DNA of 64,000 nt from Anaerolineae bacterium (GTDB taxonomy: Bacteria; Chloroflexota; Anaerolineae; Anaerolineales; Anaerolineaceae), in the NCBI GenBank assembly GCA_013314735.1, contig JABUFD010000003.1, positions 434,001 through 498,000 on the forward strand, read 5' to 3'. Shown piece by piece: positions 1,984 through 9,616 of this stretch. Made by a program: the position numbers and the translations under genes. Below the pieces are notes generated by a model. That model saw only the letters and a list, made by a program, of their open reading frames with translations, had not been told where the DNA came from and ran no database searches. Position 1 is the stretch's first letter, and every line of letters begins with the position of its first letter.

Positions 1984-2358
1984 TTACTGCGCCGTAATAG
2001 TATAGTCTGTCGGGCTGGCCCCCACTTCCCCGCGCACCTCGCCGAAGGCGGTGTATGTAGTTCTGGAAATCACATCCCCATCCTCATCCAATATCACCGA
2101 ACTGGATTGCAGATGGTCGAATGACCGGCTGCCGCCGCTCAAATGGGAGTTTTCGCGTTGTGAAAACTCCATCAAGGCAATACGCAGTATTGACTCGCGC
2201 ATGGCAAAACGGCCCGTGCCGCCGTGGTAATACATCACCTCGGTTTCGAGTTCGTTTTCATCCACCCGCAGCTCGTAATCATTGCCGAGGAAACATCTAG
2301 TCCCATTGGCATTATATAATACCCAAAAATATTGGAGGGAATTGGGGCTTCGATTCAT
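1984..2358 (-). pseudogene. RHS core remnant (copy D), truncated, no C-terminal domain
   Basis: A 124-aa frame. The first 24 or so residues are unrelated to RHS; then YELRVDENELETEV, YYHGGTGRFAMR, FDHLQSSSVILDE and TTYTAFGEVRGE match the RHS core of the three genes upstream. It stops right after PTDYT, before the GQRSYMDELGLMYYVARWYDP block and before any variable C-terminal domain. It starts at an ATG overlapping the previous lipoprotein stop (ATGA), so it may still be translated. Bases 2030-2208 match 3914-4092 with about nine differences and no gaps by eye, which points to recent duplication. It is best read as the decayed end of the array, with no predicted function of its own. Confidence 0.75.
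2000..2280 (-). repeat. RHS core repeat, copy D
   Basis: The conserved RHS core DNA begins at the GTATAGT corresponding to 3884 in copy C, 6072 in copy B and 8673 in copy A, and ends at the YELRV codons. The copy breaks exactly at the base where copies B and C carry their palindromic insert. Confidence 0.75.
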
Positions 2359-2945
2359 TGGTCTAGTAATCCAATAGGGATATCCAGGAATGCGCCAACA
2401 GGTTGTAGGTCGGTTTCATATTCACCCAACATAATTCCTTTGATCACTACTCGAATATAAGATGGTTCAAATTCATCATGCAAAACAGGGGGGTACACTT
2501 TCAGGGTGTCTGCATAATTGGGGCTTGAATTTCCAGTTAAAATGATTGTGGATGAGTTTTTTTGAGAAAAAGTGGGCATTATCTCAAAATAATCACATCG
2601 GTTTTGGGGCGTATGGGAAGTGGGCAAGTAATATCGGATATCATAATCTTCGGAGAATTTTATGTTAACACCTTCCTGAATTTTTAGCCCCAGAATTATT
2701 CGAGTGGTGCCAGTTTCAGCATAATAAAACTCCATCTCATTTTCTGCCAGTTCGACACTTAGATAAGAATTGACGTATTGATTGCTGATTTGGAAATAAT
2801 CTTCAATAAAATCATTATTGCTATATACACTGGCAACCTGCGTAACTTGGCTTATACAGGAGGGCAGATTGTCAGAAAATTCGTTCCTTGAACAACCACA
2901 TCCGCCTAATAAAATCAACACTATGAAAAACAGCTTGGCTTTCAT
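2355..2945 (-). CDS. Predicted lipoprotein 3 of the RHS array
   Basis: 196 aa from the ATG at 2945, chosen because it follows a GAGG ribosome site and opens a lipoprotein signal (MKAKLFFIVLILLGGCGC) with the lipidated cysteine in LLGGC/GGCGC. Reading further upstream adds 28 residues that do not look like a signal. The mature part is rich in Ser, Tyr, Asn and beta-type sequence with no family recognised. It starts 28 bases after the RHS copy C stop and its TGA overlaps the ATG of remnant D. Its DNA is clearly AT-richer than the RHS cores. By position it pairs with the copy C C-terminal domain; an immunity or partner role is inference only. Confidence 0.7.
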   Translation of the reverse strand: MKAKLFFIVLILLGGCGCSRNEFSDNLPSCISQVTQVASVYSNNDFIEDYFQISNQYVNSYLSVELAENEMEFYYAETGTTRIILGLKIQEGVNIKFSEDYDIRYYLPTSHTPQNRCDYFEIMPTFSQKNSSTIILTGNSSPNYADTLKVYPPVLHDEFEPSYIRVVIKGIMLGEYETDLQPVGAFLDIPIGLLDQ

Positions 2946-2973
2946 CAACTTTTCCTCACAGTTAAGTTTTAGA

Positions 2974-4146
2974 TTAAGGTAAACACGAGCCGGTGATGTT
3001 GAATGCAGCAAGTGACCATTGCTTTTCATACATAAATGTTGGATCGTGGTAGAGTTGAATATTAAAATTGATATTTACATCATTAGGGAATGAAAAATTT
3101 AACTTTTCGATATGGGTAGTGCCTGGCTCTAGGGATACGAAATGCTTATTTGAAACAATAAAACTATCATTATTAACAATAGCTTCATAATCAAACCTGG
3201 TGACATTTTGGTTTGACTGATTGTTAATAGAGAAATTATCTAAGGTCATCTTGTCGCTATACATTGAATATGTTAATGTGACGAACAGATCATCAGTTGA
3301 ATTTTTTAATGAAACAGAAATAAGAAAGGGCTGGATTTGTTCATAAAGAATATTAAGTAATTCGAAGATTCCAGCTACCACACTTAAATCACTAACTCCA
3401 TAATCGATATAGTCAGGCCCCGATACACCGCCATCATCAATATGAATTCCTGCAGGGTTAGGAATCGATAAATAAAAACTTTCAGTTAATGATGATGTGT
3501 TAACATAAAAAGAATCGTAATTGCCTATTTCGCATAAAAAACTAATATCATTACTTTCTATTGCCGTTTTAACCAAAAATTCTCCGGGTAAATAATCCCC
3601 ATCGATTAATGGATCCTGGTCTGTAGGATTGTAATATTCATGTCCACTCGGGTCATTGTACCGGACCGGGTTCCACAAAACGTACGCATATCGATCCCAA
3701 TCACCGGAATTGCCGGGCTGCGGGATCAGGCTGTCCGGCTGGATGAACTGGTTAAGATAAGGATCATACCAGCGCGCGACGTAGTACATCAGCCCCAGTT
3801 CATCCATGTACGACCGCTGGCCATGTGTACGAGTGAAAACCGTGACGGTTTTCACTTTAAAGTCAAAGCTGCGCTTTGACTCAGTATAATCCGTGGGACT
3901 TGTGCCTGTTGTGCCGCGCACCTCGCCGAAGGCGGTGTATGTAGTTCTGGAAATCACATCCCCGCCCTCGTCCAGGATCACTGAACTGGATTGCAGATGG
4001 TCGAATGACCGGCTGCCGCCGCTCAAATGGGAGTGCTCGCGTTGCGAAAACTCCATCAAGGCAATACGCAGTATTGACTCGCGCATGGCAAAGCGTCCCG
4101 TTGGGACTGTGTTGTAACTTAGTTCGGTTTGGGTGGTGGCTTTCAT
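2974..4146 (-). CDS. RHS core fragment (copy C) with a unique C-terminal domain
   Basis: 390 aa from the ATG at 4146, which overlaps the stop of the lipoprotein before it (TAATG). A TTG 15 bases upstream is possible but less likely. The first 15 residues are unrelated; then comes the RHS core from TGRFAMR through DHLQSSSVILDE, TTYTAFGEVRG, GQRSYMDELGLMYYVARW, FIQPDSLIPQPGN, DRYAYVLWNPVRY and DPSGH (about residue 165). An 18-residue insert between TDYT and GQRS is encoded by two palindromes. After DPSGH and a shared DPLIDGD, about 215 residues form a unique AT-rich domain with no motif recognised. There is no signal peptide and no N-terminal YD-repeat shell, so it resembles an orphan rhs tip module rather than a full RHS protein. 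Confidence 0.75.
   Translation of the reverse strand: MKATTQTELSYNTVPTGRFAMRESILRIALMEFSQREHSHLSGGSRSFDHLQSSSVILDEGGDVISRTTYTAFGEVRGTTGTSPTDYTESKRSFDFKVKTVTVFTRTHGQRSYMDELGLMYYVARWYDPYLNQFIQPDSLIPQPGNSGDWDRYAYVLWNPVRYNDPSGHEYYNPTDQDPLIDGDYLPGEFLVKTAIESNDISFLCEIGNYDSFYVNTSSLTESFYLSIPNPAGIHIDDGGVSGPDYIDYGVSDLSVVAGIFELLNILYEQIQPFLISVSLKNSTDDLFVTLTYSMYSDKMTLDNFSINNQSNQNVTRFDYEAIVNNDSFIVSNKHFVSLEPGTTHIEKLNFSFPNDVNINFNIQLYHDPTFMYEKQWSLAAFNITGSCLP
3640..4105 (-). repeat. RHS core repeat, copy C
   Basis: Runs from the DPSGH codons (3640) to the TGRFAMR codons. It is highly similar at DNA level to copy D over 3914-4092 and to copy B over about 3640-3945, including the palindromic insert. Confidence 0.8.
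3823..3883. repeat. Double-palindrome insert in RHS copy C
   Basis: 61 bases stand where copy A has 7 (8666-8672), a net gain of 54 bases or 18 codons, so the frame is kept. It holds two hairpins: 3833-3855, 11-base perfect arms GTGAAAACCGT around a single base, and 3861-3881, 9-base perfect arms AGTCAAAGC around TGC. The same insert is at 6011-6071. It is reminiscent in behaviour, not in sequence, of the in-frame palindromic elements described in Rickettsia. Confidence 0.75.
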
Positions 4147-5138
4147 TAATGGATAATCCAATATGGAGAATAACCATCCTGAATGATCTCCGTTTCCTGT
4201 TTCGTAGTGAAGTCGTACAGGTAGATATTGTTCTGATCAGGGACAGCTTCATTATTGGGTGAATATGGTGACTGTTGACTTATACTGTATACGATCTGGT
4301 TTCCATCTGGTGACCAGGATGCAATCGGCACATACTTAGAGAAATAAAAGTTATAGGTGTTCCAGCCAGAAAATTGCGAAGCCCATCGGATATCGACAAT
4401 CTTCTCTATTTGCTCTGTCTGAAATGTATACACATAGATTCCATCTTTTTTGGTGAAGGCAACCCGTTCACCGGTGGGTGAGATAGCCGGTGCCATGATC
4501 AAATCCGTTGTGAAAATTGTCGTGATTTCACCCGTATCAAGCTCTAACGATTTTAACGCATGGTTTCCGTCTGGCTGCATATCTTGATAATAAATCTTCC
4601 CATCATATTCGCTATTTGTTCCCAGAAAACACTTATTGATGTTTTTTGCCTCTTTATCATTAATGGATAGAATCATTAAAACCTCATATAAGCCTGCCTC
4701 GGTATACTTTGCAAGTACCAAATCTCCATCCATTTCTTTCCCTCCCTGGATTACGGTTAAATAAGAGACATACATAACCGATTCTCCTCCATCTAAAAAT
4801 GAAGCCATATCACACCGATCAAAGTTGTAACCGACTAATTTCGATCCCTGACTATCGACCAAACCGACAGAAAAATCTGGTTGATAAGAATGATACAACA
4901 GGATCGACGTTCGAGAAGCAAATGAGAATCGATGCCAGGAATCTGCCTGAACTTTATCGATTTTATGGTTGTCTACTCGATAAAGACCTAATGCTCCTTC
5001 CTCAGTGCTGAACACAATATCAGTATCATCTAGCTGTTCCTGCATATCTATTGAAAGCGTACGAATTCGATATGTGCAGGAACCAAAAAGGCAAGCCAAA
5101 AGTAGGATGAGGAAAATGTGACTCAACTTAATTTTCAT
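4146..5138 (-). CDS. Predicted beta-propeller lipoprotein 2 of the RHS array
   Basis: 330 aa from the ATG at 5138, which overlaps the RHS copy B stop (TAATG) and follows a GGTGGGAAAAG ribosome site. The signal MKIKLSHIFLILLLACLFGSC ends in a lipobox, predicting an anchor on the outer face of the membrane. The C-terminal half shows TolB/WD40-like blades: AISPTGERVAFTKKDGIYVY (about residues 227-246), IASWSPDGNQIVYSIS and NNIYLYDFTTKQETEI. The DNA is AT-rich relative to the neighbouring core repeats. By position it partners the C39-like domain encoded just before it. Immunity protein, receptor or substrate are all possible; none is proven by sequence. Confidence 0.75.
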   Translation of the reverse strand: MKIKLSHIFLILLLACLFGSCTYRIRTLSIDMQEQLDDTDIVFSTEEGALGLYRVDNHKIDKVQADSWHRFSFASRTSILLYHSYQPDFSVGLVDSQGSKLVGYNFDRCDMASFLDGGESVMYVSYLTVIQGGKEMDGDLVLAKYTEAGLYEVLMILSINDKEAKNINKCFLGTNSEYDGKIYYQDMQPDGNHALKSLELDTGEITTIFTTDLIMAPAISPTGERVAFTKKDGIYVYTFQTEQIEKIVDIRWASQFSGWNTYNFYFSKYVPIASWSPDGNQIVYSISQQSPYSPNNEAVPDQNNIYLYDFTTKQETEIIQDGYSPYWIIH

Positions 5139-6274
5139 TACTTTTCCCACCAAAGTTCCCGATAACTTATCATCATTCCATGCAACCCAAACGGTTTAGC
5201 GAAATCCTGGTTGAAAACAGTTCTACTATAGCGAGAAATTTCAGTGTCATCAGCTGGATCCATAACAAATATGTTATAGGGATCATAGCCAACTACATTC
5301 ACATAATGAAGACTTTCCTGCATATTCAGCACTACCGTCACCGGATTGCGTGTTTCGTTCAGCCGGTTAATGACATCATCGATTGAATTGTTGTATGAAA
5401 AATGGGCAATGCCGGAGATTTGTTCAGAATAAGCCGAATATAAGTTGTAAAAAGCAGCGACACCCCATGGAAAGGTTGCTCCTTTTGTATCTCCAAATTT
5501 CCATATTGGAATATTTAAAGGCAGTCTGGCTAGTGATAATGTCATTGGCGCAGCAAGATCGTCGATAGTAACAAAGGAGTTGTTTTGTGCCATATAGTTC
5601 ATGACCATTGCCAGTGCTGCCACTCCACATTCATTGATGCCTTGTTTCATTAAATAATTTTCAGCATCTCTCAAATGATAGGAGGCATTATATAGTAGAT
5701 CGTATTGGTCATCCGGGCTGAATGTAGATGATGCACTCCCTCTATTTGTCGGAGTATTGAGGATATACTCTTGAAGAATGGGATCGCCATCGATAAGCGG
5801 TATGTTATCATTTGGTATCTCCAGCACATGTCCACTCGGGTCGCTGTACCGGACCGGGTTCCACAGCACATAAGCATATCTGTCCCAATCGGCAGAATTG
5901 CCGGGCTGCGGGATGAGGCTGTCCGGCTGGATGAACTGGTTAAGAGATGGATCATACCAGCGCGCGACGTAGTACATCAACCCCAGTTCATCCATGTACG
6001 AACGCTGGCCATGTGTACGAGTGAAAACCGTGACGGTTTTCACTTTAAAGCCAAAGCTGCGCTTTGACTCGGTATAATCCGTGGGACTTGTTCCCGTTTC
6101 TTTGCGCACCTCGCCAAAAGCGGTGTATGTCGTCGCACTCACCACATCCCCTCCGTCATACACCCGAATGGCAAAGCGCATCGCAGGGCTGGTGTGATAT
6201 TTCGACCAAAATTTGGTTGTAGTATCCATTTTTAATTGGTCACCCTCCACGGAAAACTCGCCTGGCGAAAACAT
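5138..6274 (-). CDS. RHS core fragment (copy B) with a C39-like cysteine peptidase domain
   Basis: 378 aa if the ATG at 6274 is used. A later ATG (about residue 16) has a better-looking but distant GGAGGG site, so the start is uncertain. RHS core: GGDVVSATTYTAFGEVRKE, the 18-residue palindrome-encoded insert, GQRSYMDELGLMYYVARW, FIQPDSLIPQPGN, NPVRYSDPSGH (to about residue 150). The DHLQSSSVILDE part found in the other copies is deleted. The tip has papain-like C39 features: catalytic Cys in GINECGVAALAMVMNYM (about residue 216), His in ESLHYVNVVGYD and Asp in FVMDPADD. It may cleave peptides or process the RHS protein itself. It lacks a signal peptide and the N-terminal shell, and it is translationally coupled to the lipoprotein that follows. 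Confidence 0.8.
   Translation of the reverse strand: MFSPGEFSVEGDQLKMDTTTKFWSKYHTSPAMRFAIRVYDGGDVVSATTYTAFGEVRKETGTSPTDYTESKRSFGFKVKTVTVFTRTHGQRSYMDELGLMYYVARWYDPSLNQFIQPDSLIPQPGNSADWDRYAYVLWNPVRYSDPSGHVLEIPNDNIPLIDGDPILQEYILNTPTNRGSASSTFSPDDQYDLLYNASYHLRDAENYLMKQGINECGVAALAMVMNYMAQNNSFVTIDDLAAPMTLSLARLPLNIPIWKFGDTKGATFPWGVAAFYNLYSAYSEQISGIAHFSYNNSIDDVINRLNETRNPVTVVLNMQESLHYVNVVGYDPYNIFVMDPADDTEISRYSRTVFNQDFAKPFGLHGMMISYRELWWEK
5828..6182 (-). repeat. RHS core repeat, copy B
   Basis: From the DPSGH codons at 5828 to the RFAIRVYDGGDV codons. Compared with copy C it has lost the section from FAMRES to SVILDE, but keeps the insert and everything toward the variable tip. Confidence 0.8.
6011..6071. 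repeat. Double-palindrome insert in RHS copy B
   Basis: Same position and length as 3823-3883. The first hairpin (6021-6043, arms GTGAAAACCGT) is perfect. The second (6049-6069, AGCCAAAGC / GCTTTGACT) has one mismatch, where copy C is perfect. Confidence 0.75.
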
Positions 6275-6284
6275 TCAACAAAAA

Positions 6285-7778
6285 TTATGGACTCCATATC
6301 CCCAAGGGGCTATAAAAATAGTAGTTATTGATGAAGAAGTAAGAACCAGTTTCCAGATCATACATCATTAGCCGCGGGTGATCATCAGCTCTTTGTACAT
6401 AGAATACAATAAATTTGTTTGAATTCGACCATTGGGCAAACTCTACTTCTTCTCTCGCCATGTAACTGGCGGATTCGTCGACTACAATGAGCATTTCTTC
6501 GACAGCATCAGTGACACAGTCAATCTCATTTGTCACAAATGAATATAAACAATATCCACCAGCCGTAGACAATACATATTCGCCAGTTGTTCCAGTTCCA
6601 AAATAACTAAATCCCAATACATCTATTGAGGAAATATAGGTTAAATTATTAATAAACACTTGGTGTAAGTCAAATAATTCATGATGCTGAAAATACTCAT
6701 CAATAACAGCCAATTTCTCTGTCGTCTTTTTGTCCATGCTGTAAATGAAAATTTCGGTTCCCGTTGCATTATCTAATGAATAGAAATCCCATATACTGAT
6801 TGGGTTAAAATAGAATTCGTCCCCCTTGGAATTCCAGGCTCGTTCTTGCCCCAGACCGATTTTCGGCAGCTCTTGAACGATCGAGCCATCTGATATATCA
6901 ATAATGTAATCACCGATTTCAACCAGCGTATTACTATTTGGCAGCCAATTCACAAAAGGCCGATCTACATCAATCTCTTGAATATCATATGAAATTTCTC
7001 GTTGTTTGTGGAAATCATAACCATTAACTTGTATGAAATTCCCAAAACGGTCCTCTTTGAGTTTCACATCAAAGATATAGAATTGCTCATTGGGAGAAAT
7101 ATTTTTTGAATAGTCATATCCAAAGTCACCAATATTTTGCGGGATGAAATAAGCTTCACCATTAATGAGGACAATCTTTTTGACCGGGTATGCACGATCT
7201 GACGCACTGGTAGGTTCGCCTTCAGGAAAAGATTCAACAGCAAACAGTTTAGCTTCCCGTGAAATCGGGTAGCTAACAATTGTTCCAGATGAAAAACCAA
7301 GAATTGAATACTCATCAAAGATTGGATTTACCCATCCGATTCCACGTTCAGGTTCAGTTACCCAAAAATATGCTTTTATCTCTTTTTCCCTGATGGAAAA
7401 TAGAAAAATCTCTTGTGATATGGGATTCACAATTGCGAGATGCCGTTCCCCATTCTCATCCGGCGCAATGCACAAGTATAATTCGCTGTTCGCATTTTTC
7501 ACCCAATCAGGCAGAATTACAGGATTCTTTGTTGCTGTCGGTACTACCGATTCTGTCGGTATGATTGTAGCTGTTGCAACCGGCTGTGGTGTTGCGGCTT
7601 TTGTTGTCGCTTCTGTTTGAGAATTTCCCAATGCTGTGGAATATTGAGGGGTGGTTGTCGGATTTTCCTGGCTTGTCGGTATGTTAGGTGATTCTGCATC
7701 ATTTACAAACCGACATGAACCAATCAGCAGGAACAAGATAAGTCCCAATACGAGAGTTATTCCTTTACTTTTATGCAT
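6285..7778 (-). CDS. Predicted beta-propeller-like lipoprotein 1 of the RHS array
   Basis: 497 aa. MHKSKGITLVLGLILFLLIG leads to a lipobox cysteine (LLIGSC), followed by a Thr/Pro/Ala stalk (about residues 30-90) and a large domain of repeated beta segments such as GERHLAIVNPISQEIFLFSI, KGDEFYFNPISIWDFYSL, NSNKFIVFYVQ and RLMMYDLETGSYFF, suggesting a divergent propeller. The ATG at 7778 is two bases after the RHS copy A stop, with its AGGA ribosome site inside the end of that gene, so the two are probably co-translated. The DNA is AT-rich. By position it pairs with the metallopeptidase-like tip of copy A. Its role as inhibitor or partner is inference. Confidence 0.72.
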   Translation of the reverse strand: MHKSKGITLVLGLILFLLIGSCRFVNDAESPNIPTSQENPTTTPQYSTALGNSQTEATTKAATPQPVATATIIPTESVVPTATKNPVILPDWVKNANSELYLCIAPDENGERHLAIVNPISQEIFLFSIREKEIKAYFWVTEPERGIGWVNPIFDEYSILGFSSGTIVSYPISREAKLFAVESFPEGEPTSASDRAYPVKKIVLINGEAYFIPQNIGDFGYDYSKNISPNEQFYIFDVKLKEDRFGNFIQVNGYDFHKQREISYDIQEIDVDRPFVNWLPNSNTLVEIGDYIIDISDGSIVQELPKIGLGQERAWNSKGDEFYFNPISIWDFYSLDNATGTEIFIYSMDKKTTEKLAVIDEYFQHHELFDLHQVFINNLTYISSIDVLGFSYFGTGTTGEYVLSTAGGYCLYSFVTNEIDCVTDAVEEMLIVVDESASYMAREEVEFAQWSNSNKFIVFYVQRADDHPRLMMYDLETGSYFFINNYYFYSPLGIWSP

Positions 7779-7780
7779 AT

Positions 7781-9616
7781 TTAATATCCTACATAGCTCC
7801 GAATTTTCGAATTCATGAATGTCATTCGGCGTGCGCCTTCATTAACAGTCAGATCGTAACGATTATAGGTCCATGCGATAAACATATCGGCAAATGCCTC
7901 TCGTCGACGATCGTATTTATCCACTTGTCTATGTTGAACCCAGATGTGTTCGCCTGCTGAAGTGCTATTATCCAAGCCAACAAGTGAAGTCCTATAAGGT
8001 TCTTCAATCCACAAATCTGAGTCAAGCCCTGTGACGCCCATATCGTTAAATACGTTTTCGGTAAGGAGTAAATGTCCCAACTCATGTACAACGAGATTTC
8101 GATTCATTAATGCTGCCATACCATTTTCACGAAATTGGGTACTGTAAAATCCATAGAAAGTAATTTCGTTAGATGGTCCTCCTAAACACTGCCCCCCAGC
8201 CCCAGCTAAACCTTTCGTAAAGGTTACATGGTCATAGGCATTAATAAATGCTTCCTGACTGCTACCAGCTCCTGTTACTTCTTGGAATCTCTTTCCAACA
8301 TCGGATACCGCAGTATGTAAAGCCACCAGTTCTGATGTTTTCCAGGTGTCCGTGGTTCCTGCCTTGATTCTCACGTTGTACTTTAACAAACCTAACCAAC
8401 TACTCGCATACGTGTCATATCCCCCACTCGCAATTTTGTTCACACCTCTTGTAAGAGGATCATCTCCCTCAATCTGTGGAATATACCCTGTTGGATCAGA
8501 TAACAATATGGGGTTGAAAAACACATAGGCATATCGGTCCCAACTAGCAGAATTTCCTGGATTGGGTACAAATGAATCCGCCTGGCAAAAGTGCGCCAAA
8601 ACGGGATCATACCAGCGCGCGACGTAGTACATCAACCCCAGTTCATCCATGTACGAACGCTGGCCAGTAAAAGTATAATCCGTGGGACTTGTGCCTGTTT
8701 CTTTGCGAACCTCACCAAACGCTGTATAACTCGTTTTGCTGTACACATCGCCATTCTCTTCCAGGATGACACTGGAAGATTGCAGGTGGTCGGTAAATAT
8801 CCAGTACAGCTCATTCGTCAGGGCGGTCCGGGTGCGCATCGCAAAACGGCCTGTACCGCCGTGGTAATACAGCACCTCGGTTTCGAGTTCGTTTTCATCC
8901 ACCCGCAGCTCGTAATACCCGCCAACATAGTAAGTGGTCACCCCATCCATCTCACTCTTGACCATGACCCCATTGCCGTCATACGTGTAGGCGATGGCGG
9001 AAAAACTCGCCATGCCTGCCGCTTCCGGCGTGGGGGAGGCTTCCGTCGTTTCGGTTGGCGTAAAGGTGGCGGAAGGCGTGGGCGTCTCCGTTTCCGTTGG
9101 AACAATCTCCTGAGTGGCGGTTGGGGTTGGCGAAGGTTCCAGCGTTTCGGTCGGGGTCGGTTCCACCGTTTCGGTGGGAGTCAACGCCAACGTCGGGGTG
9201 AGGGAAACCGCCGGCGTTTCGGTGGGGGTGGTTTCCTGGGTTTCGGGGGGGGACAACTCGGGGGTCCACGTAAGAGTGGGTTCTGCTGTTTCCGTTGGTG
9301 GAATTTCCAGCGTTTCGGTCGGGGTGAAAACCAGTGTCGCTGTCGGGGACGGTTCCGGCGTTTCCGTCAGGGTGGGTTCCGGTGTTTCGGATGGAATCGG
9401 GGTGGAAGTGAGGGTTTCCGTCGGAGTTTCGGTCACGGTCGGGGTTTCTGTGGGTTCCGGCGGAGCGGCTTCGGGTGTGGTGCGGGAAACCGCCACCAGG
9501 CGGTTCTCGTGAACATAGCTCAGGTTGTAGGTGTTGTCATCGATCACCCGCTCCACCTGGTTGCCGTTGGCATCGTATGTATATTCATTGTTGGTGAAAC
9601 TGCATTTGGTTTCCAC
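7781..9616 (-). CDS. RHS protein fragment (copy A) with PTE linker and zinc metallopeptidase tip
   Basis: 611 aa from a GTG at 9616 behind a weak GAAGGGG site. Order: a YD repeat (NEYTYDANGNQVERV and ENRLVAVSR, residues about 10-45); a Pro/Thr/Glu tract of about 160 residues; a second YD stretch (AYTYDGNGVMVKSEMDG); the core YELRVDENELETEV, TDHLQSSSVILEE, TSYTAFGEVRKE, GQRSYMDELGLMYYVARW, FFNPILLSDPTGY (to about residue 380); and a unique tip. The tip has VVHELGHLLL (first zinc His about 511) and REAFADMFIAW downstream, which may supply the third ligand, as in HExxH peptidases. It has no signal peptide and only a stub of the RHS shell, and it begins 31 bases after the galE stop, so the N-terminus has probably been lost. 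Confidence 0.78.
   Translation of the reverse strand: METKCSFTNNEYTYDANGNQVERVIDDNTYNLSYVHENRLVAVSRTTPEAAPPEPTETPTVTETPTETLTSTPIPSETPEPTLTETPEPSPTATLVFTPTETLEIPPTETAEPTLTWTPELSPPETQETTPTETPAVSLTPTLALTPTETVEPTPTETLEPSPTPTATQEIVPTETETPTPSATFTPTETTEASPTPEAAGMASFSAIAYTYDGNGVMVKSEMDGVTTYYVGGYYELRVDENELETEVLYYHGGTGRFAMRTRTALTNELYWIFTDHLQSSSVILEENGDVYSKTSYTAFGEVRKETGTSPTDYTFTGQRSYMDELGLMYYVARWYDPVLAHFCQADSFVPNPGNSASWDRYAYVFFNPILLSDPTGYIPQIEGDDPLTRGVNKIASGGYDTYASSWLGLLKYNVRIKAGTTDTWKTSELVALHTAVSDVGKRFQEVTGAGSSQEAFINAYDHVTFTKGLAGAGGQCLGGPSNEITFYGFYSTQFRENGMAALMNRNLVVHELGHLLLTENVFNDMGVTGLDSDLWIEEPYRTSLVGLDNSTSAGEHIWVQHRQVDKYDRRREAFADMFIAWTYNRYDLTVNEGARRMTFMNSKIRSYVGY
8482..8935 (-). repeat. RHS core repeat, copy A
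   Basis: From the DPTGY codons to the YELRV codons. It is the most divergent copy (FFNPILLSDPTGY in place of LWNPVRYSDPSGH) and lacks the palindromic insert, so it shows the uninterrupted state at 8666-8672. Confidence 0.75.

Follow-up and report, generated by a model that had tools for sequence, protein, structure and literature searches.

What is a double palindrome doing inside the reading frame of an Rhs gene? The question is raised by a 64,000-nt stretch of an Anaerolineae bacterium (GenBank assembly GCA_013314735.1, contig JABUFD010000003.1, positions 434,001 to 498,000 of the forward strand), which we call the window. Its minus strand carries a row of Rhs-core genes, copies A, B and C and a truncated copy D, with other genes between them, and in B and C the same Rhs-core codon holds an in-frame palindromic insert, E3. 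Rhs genes are hotspots of rearrangement, and in-frame palindromic elements are of a rare known kind, with examples in Rickettsia and in the coding palindromes of some mitochondria. E3 looks like a tolerated mobile palindrome rather than a working protein part. Our reading, to which we give roughly two chances in three, is that it is the short version of a low-copy, lineage-restricted palindromic hairpin train that has spread within this genome, its palindromy maintained by hairpin templating. The genes and sites that bear on E3 are as follows; E2 is a longer element described below.

7781–9616, minus strand: copy A, an Rhs head gene of 611 amino acids in which no element was found (open reading frame, TIGR03696 match, alignment)
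8666–8672, minus strand: empty E3 site in copy A (alignment of A, B and C)
5138–6274, minus strand: copy B, an orphan Rhs tip with E3 and a C-terminal peptidase C39-like domain (open reading frame, domain search)
6018–6071, minus strand: E3 in copy B, an insert as in copy C, with one arm mismatch in its second hairpin (6049–6069)
2974–4161, minus strand: copy C, an orphan Rhs tip with E2 and E3 (open reading frame, TIGR03696 match)
3830–3883, minus strand: E3 in copy C, an in-frame 54-nt double hairpin (3832–3856 and 3861–3881)

Alignment of the three copies gives B and C a net gain of 54 nt (18 codons) over A, with the frame intact, as the original prediction had said; the block that it placed at 3823–3883 and 6011–6071 lies slightly further inside. 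The NCBIfam model TIGR03696 (Rhs_assc_core) matches all three copies, and E3 falls within its match in B (residues 50–149). The insert does consist of two adjacent hairpins, the first around a single-base loop, with perfect arms of 12 bases where 11 had been read (3832–3856 in C, 6020–6044 in B). On the plus strand, hairpin 1 reads AGTGAAAACCGT-g-ACGGTTTTCACT and hairpin 2, with 9-base arms around a 3-base loop, reads AGTCAAAGC-tgc-GCTTTGACT; the latter is perfect in C and has one mismatch in B, in agreement with the prediction. As to the terminal inverted repeats and target-site duplication of a miniature inverted-repeat transposable element (MITE), the ends YGAGTC...ACTCG on the coding strand form an imperfect inverted repeat, which may reflect no more than the hairpins, and a short TAC flanks the insert on both sides.

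Such hairpins are not expected by chance. The window contains three perfect hairpins with arms of at least 11 bases and loops of at most 4, and two of the three are E3 hairpins; among 20 dinucleotide shuffles, 18 contained none and two contained one. The pattern of hairpin 1, with up to three mismatches allowed, matched twice in the window against an expectation of zero. When the inserts were folded as single-stranded DNA, their stability gave z = -7.1 and -6.1, and none of 200 shuffles was equally stable.

We then asked how widely E3 occurs. In the 4.09-Mb genome to which the window belongs, the exact hairpin has two sites only, both in Rhs genes and at one codon position, and looser hairpin spacing added none. 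A blastn search of this genome with the insert returned seven matches: the two inserts, two reverse-strand self-matches and three weak matches that are not hairpins. Hairpin 1 with at most one mismatch was found in none of the 395 other genomes among 396 of the class, and the exact hairpin was absent from public viral-contig and genome-contig collections, which may omit records of the genome that contains the window. Empty sites, which the prediction proposed to look for, are plentiful: besides copy A, the site is uninterrupted in 56 of 65 distinct Rhs tips of relatives (53 by pattern, 3 by eye), and none of the 65, nine of which are unreadable at the site, showed an E3-like insert. The prediction had set a palindromic DNA insert against one found at a single Rhs codon and conserved as protein; the confinement of the exact pair to one Rhs codon was found, and conservation as protein was not, given the 56 uninterrupted tips.

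The relatives' tips hold other inserts. Several genera share a different short in-frame insert, CPLR...REGE or ASLWDKA..., placed at the Rhs-core W-GE codon (tips L030, L031, L034, L035, L042, L149, L155 and L161); 10 of the 65 tips match CPL/ASL...REGE, and the DNA is weakly palindromic. In L162 and L035, one of which has RAASLWDKAWGE and the other RVASLWDKASPTGVLTLRVRCREGE, two small inserts seem to stand consecutively at one Rhs spot, as if inserted one after the other.

The search that the prediction had called for, genome-wide and in related genomes, thus confined the exact pair to one Rhs codon and yielded kindred hairpin trains at other codons and between genes. Two of these, E1 and E2, are 78 nt (26 codons) long, lie in frame in Rhs genes and align without gaps over their whole length. 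Both follow one plan of three hairpins with stems of 9, 11 and 8 bp, loops of 3, 3 and 4 nt and 4-nt spacers (9/3/9-4-11/3/11-4-8/4/8). E2 occurs five times at one codon position; E1 occurs twice, together with a variant, E1', at a second. Two of the E2 copies lie in the window:

4003–4080, minus strand: E2 in copy C, 78 nt, three hairpins, in frame, at a second codon position of that gene
1984–2358, minus strand: tip D, a truncated orphan Rhs tip with E2 (open reading frame)
2119–2196, minus strand: E2 in tip D, 78 nt, three hairpins, in frame

The other E2 copies are at C6:163k and, twice, on C11. A covariance model built on seven 78-nt copies found eight strong copies in the genome, all in Rhs genes and seven of them its own training rows. 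Weaker matches outside Rhs genes, at C8:85099, C8:85230, C10:45791 and C5:10854, are two-hairpin copies; what remained were matches to the strong copies, partial or on the reverse strand, and a single match at an E value of 9. The intergenic copies sit just downstream of the stop codons of three large genes and retain the feet GGAG...CTCC and TTGAC...GTCAT, with one foot altered in the C5 copy, which an exact pattern of the feet missed. That pattern found seven copies in this genome, all palindromic; in other genomes it gave one non-palindromic, chance-like match in each of seven, against eight for the reversed control (counted by hand). Each of the three intergenic-copy stretches also contains a palindrome ATCGAACCGCCA...TGGCGGTTCGAT (L164:10207-10234, L165:5957-5984 and L166:4719-4746).

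A decayed copy, E4, occupies a fourth codon position in an Rhs pseudogene fragment (C11:242k), with the Rhs frame on both sides and a stop codon in the Rhs part that precedes the element; it contains GGTCATTCG, which is common to E1 and E2. The copies found thus number about 15: eight strong Rhs copies, two of E3, one decayed and four intergenic. At all four codon positions the element is in frame, uses an open frame, points the same way as its gene and begins in codon phase 1, and this uniformity fits filtering by translation.

Is E3 kin to these elements? Aligned with the first 51 columns of E1 and E2, E3 has equal arm, loop and spacer lengths, and all 20 pairs form (in B, 19 of the 20). The resemblance in sequence is modest. 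Identity to E2 is 22/51 (P 0.02 against pair-shuffled versions), with 7 of the first 8 bases shared (P 0.0005), and identity to E1 is 20/51 (P 0.05), with 5 of the first 8 (P 0.02). The first hairpin and left part of E4 agree with E3 at 19 of 28 positions; a blastn search with most of E4 returned its self-match only and no link to E3. What we find convincing about the kinship of E4 and E3 is place and company, not score.

The extent of this kinship bears on whether anything moved at all. Each hairpin might instead have formed in place by template switching, a cited route to perfect palindromes (PMC6649704), and have been copied by Rhs duplication only, with no mobile element. The limitation of E3 to two tandem paralogues would suit such a local origin, which we nevertheless rate as very unlikely: the sequence of the 78-nt element can be recognised at each of two codons, and its feet are met again in intergenic DNA.

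Changes within the stems point to how the palindrome is kept. Between E1 and E2, five stem pairs have changed on both sides, all to Watson–Crick pairs, and one on one side (P 2.5e-5 for random scatter); between E1 and E1', four changes are two-sided and none one-sided (P 2e-5). In a seven-row alignment that includes E1', eight pairs have changed on both sides, a number that none of 500 shuffles reached (shuffled mean 3.2); its number of pair types was reached in 8 of 500; a first alignment had five such pairs against 0.9 in shuffles. The stems also decay, and the window's E2 copies retain 24 and 25 of 28 pairs. The loops, in turn, are flipped. Loop AAC in the three E2 copies on C6 (window 4003, window 2119 and C6:163k) is GTT in the two on C11, TTT in E1 is AAA in E1', and GGTA in one C11 copy of E2 is TACC in the other; all three differences are exact reverse complements. 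For the coding palindromes of Nematomorpha, PMC6649704 discusses template switching, and hairpin loop inversion is described for plastid DNA in PMC6005162. Copying of one arm onto the other together with loop inversion is the pattern that intra-hairpin templating predicts, and, if such templating acts, the paired changes are no proof of selection for structure.

Two alternatives can be judged against these changes. The encoded peptide could be a functional loop of the Rhs core, with the palindrome as its by-product, and the frame, kept and open at all four codon positions, speaks for it. Yet the peptides of E1 and E2 differ at many of their 26 residues while the stems still pair, the loop flips alter residues, and the 56 readable tips of relatives have no such peptide at the E3 site; a protein-level insert is therefore the explanation we find hardest to believe. 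The second alternative is that extruding hairpins help head and orphan cassettes to swap their Rhs tips. The loop flips suggest that the hairpins are processed as DNA, and every in-gene copy is located within the conserved core or immediately ahead of it, on the upstream side of the C-termini, which vary. However, no such swap was seen, head genes are without elements and the intergenic copies lie outside Rhs genes, and such recombination sites seem to us highly improbable.

The absence of elements from head genes deserves attention of its own. Among ten Rhs copies (from 14 search rows, with two low-scoring rows omitted and two pairs of split rows merged), both head genes are without an element and all eight non-head copies have at least one. 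This split is suggestive only, because the genes are duplicates. It would be expected if the elements acted as mRNA hairpins that adjust how strongly orphan tips are translated in comparison with the operon's head gene. Copies C and D are probably translated, because their starts overlap the stop of the preceding gene (TAATG for C, with a probable ATG at 4146; ATGA for D), and the hairpins are strong. But the position and number of hairpins vary among tips, stems are decayed in several copies and intergenic copies exist; with the counts drawn from duplicated genes, we consider translation tuning rather unlikely. The layout from 1984 to 9616, an Rhs head followed by non-Rhs genes alternating with orphan tips, resembles a translationally coupled cassette row.

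We therefore return to a mobile palindrome maintained by its own hairpins. We infer, and have not seen directly, that the element moved as DNA within the genome. It would have entered orphan Rhs tip genes at conserved codons, in frame and in a single orientation, and the host would tolerate it because it leaves an open reading frame. Template switching within the hairpin, or hairpin recombination, would then copy one arm onto the other, with loop inversion as a side effect, and the palindrome would be kept without selection on the encoded peptide. A bolder version, which we think unlikely, has a coding train of locked geometry, its stems rewritten in pairs and its loops flipped, that keeps writing new in-frame peptides into orphan tips and is a palindrome-driven diversifier, not just a parasite.

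Several observations weigh against mobility. E3 stands at one codon in two tandem paralogues only, and the case for its movement rests on the modest kinship with E1, E2 and E4; by our own estimate, about one match like the 28-nt match of E3 and E4 is expected by chance in the stretches searched. E1 and E2 substitute for host codons and are not clean insertions, no target-site duplication was established and no transposase is linked to the element. The Rhs copies are duplicates, and their counts are not independent; the genes that precede the intergenic copies have, to the eye, similar C-termini, and these copies may represent one event copied with the genes.

Hairpin repeats occur in other genomes too. 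The covariance model had matches in seven, four of which appear to be chance. The match in G141 (E 1.6e-5) belongs to that genome's own serial hairpin repeat, which has 131 matches, frequently arrayed in units of about 155 bp (L079–L108), and its kinship to E3 is unproven. The same applies to the match in the distant genome G281 (E 0.017), which belongs to a separate element of three hairpins with about nine copies, most of them not inside a long open reading frame (L183–L191); two of its loops are seen either way round (TAT/ATA and GAAA/TTTC), and paired changes occur in some of its stems. In the G350 match (E 0.007), two hairpins are visible. Palindromic trains seem common in this class, given the element of G281 and the other in-frame inserts of relatives.

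A low-copy family in a genome of this class of Chloroflexota allows filled and empty sites to be compared copy by copy. With one arm copied onto the other and loops inverted within coding frames, the family is a natural test case for the question of what lets palindromes in genes survive, selection or their own templating. For Rhs genes it is also a further source of sequence change, acting locally. The literature that we searched contained no report of in-frame palindromic elements in Rhs genes, which does not prove their absence from print.

How does E3 compare with known systems? The trains of short hairpins with conserved feet, some beyond stop codons, recall repetitive extragenic palindromes (REPs) and bacterial interspersed mosaic elements. 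The 5' foot of a REP lies unpaired outside the stem; here the GGAG feet pair with CTCC within the stem, and no GTAG or GTGG foot outside a stem was found. Most of the REPs tabulated in PMC2817692 start with GTAG or GTGG, and for many the copy number runs from tens into the hundreds, against about 15 here. A link to REP-associated tyrosine transposases (RAYTs) was considered and rejected: the sole Y1 transposase gene that a PF01797 search found in the genome, RAYT-like and on C5 (L182:2345-4171), lies between two different 159-bp repeat arrays with CCCGGAGGGAGG-type palindromes, unrelated to E3. Rfam 15 at the gathering threshold gave no matches in the window, L024, L164, L165 or L166.

Other likenesses are to coding or flipping palindromes. 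Palindromic amphipathic repeat coding elements (PARCELs) share coding repeats, dyad symmetry and intragenomic spread, but PARCELs as described in PMC2996958 are amphipathic protein repeats of 25 residues, arranged in tandem and bearing a protein motif, and nothing of the kind was evident here by comparison made without the PARCEL model. Plastid hairpin loops are likewise reverse-complemented between fixed stems, in non-coding DNA according to PMC6005162, whereas ours lie in bacterial coding frames. The mitochondrial palindromes of Nematomorpha are inverted repeats in translated genes, and PMC6649704 proposes that conversion or template switching keeps their two arms identical; they differ in reaching up to 284 bp, in that both arms encode conserved protein and in forming no dispersed element.

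The closest likeness, drawn by the original prediction, is to Rickettsia palindromic elements (RPEs). These are described, in the review PMC10969869, as palindromic DNA that lies in frame inside genes and is translated, about 150 bp long, in ten families and in many unrelated genes. Compared by description, not by letters, our elements are 54–78 nt long, with in-gene copies in Rhs genes only and the rest after stop codons, and no insertion in many unrelated protein-coding genes was found in this genome. The likeness thus fails in size, in copy number and in the near restriction to one gene family; membership of the RPE or REP family is not demonstrated. It holds for the in-frame, translatable palindromic insert and for the empty sites of paralogues, and on our reading E3 works as RPEs do. 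E3 is best read as a variant of the in-frame palindromic elements.

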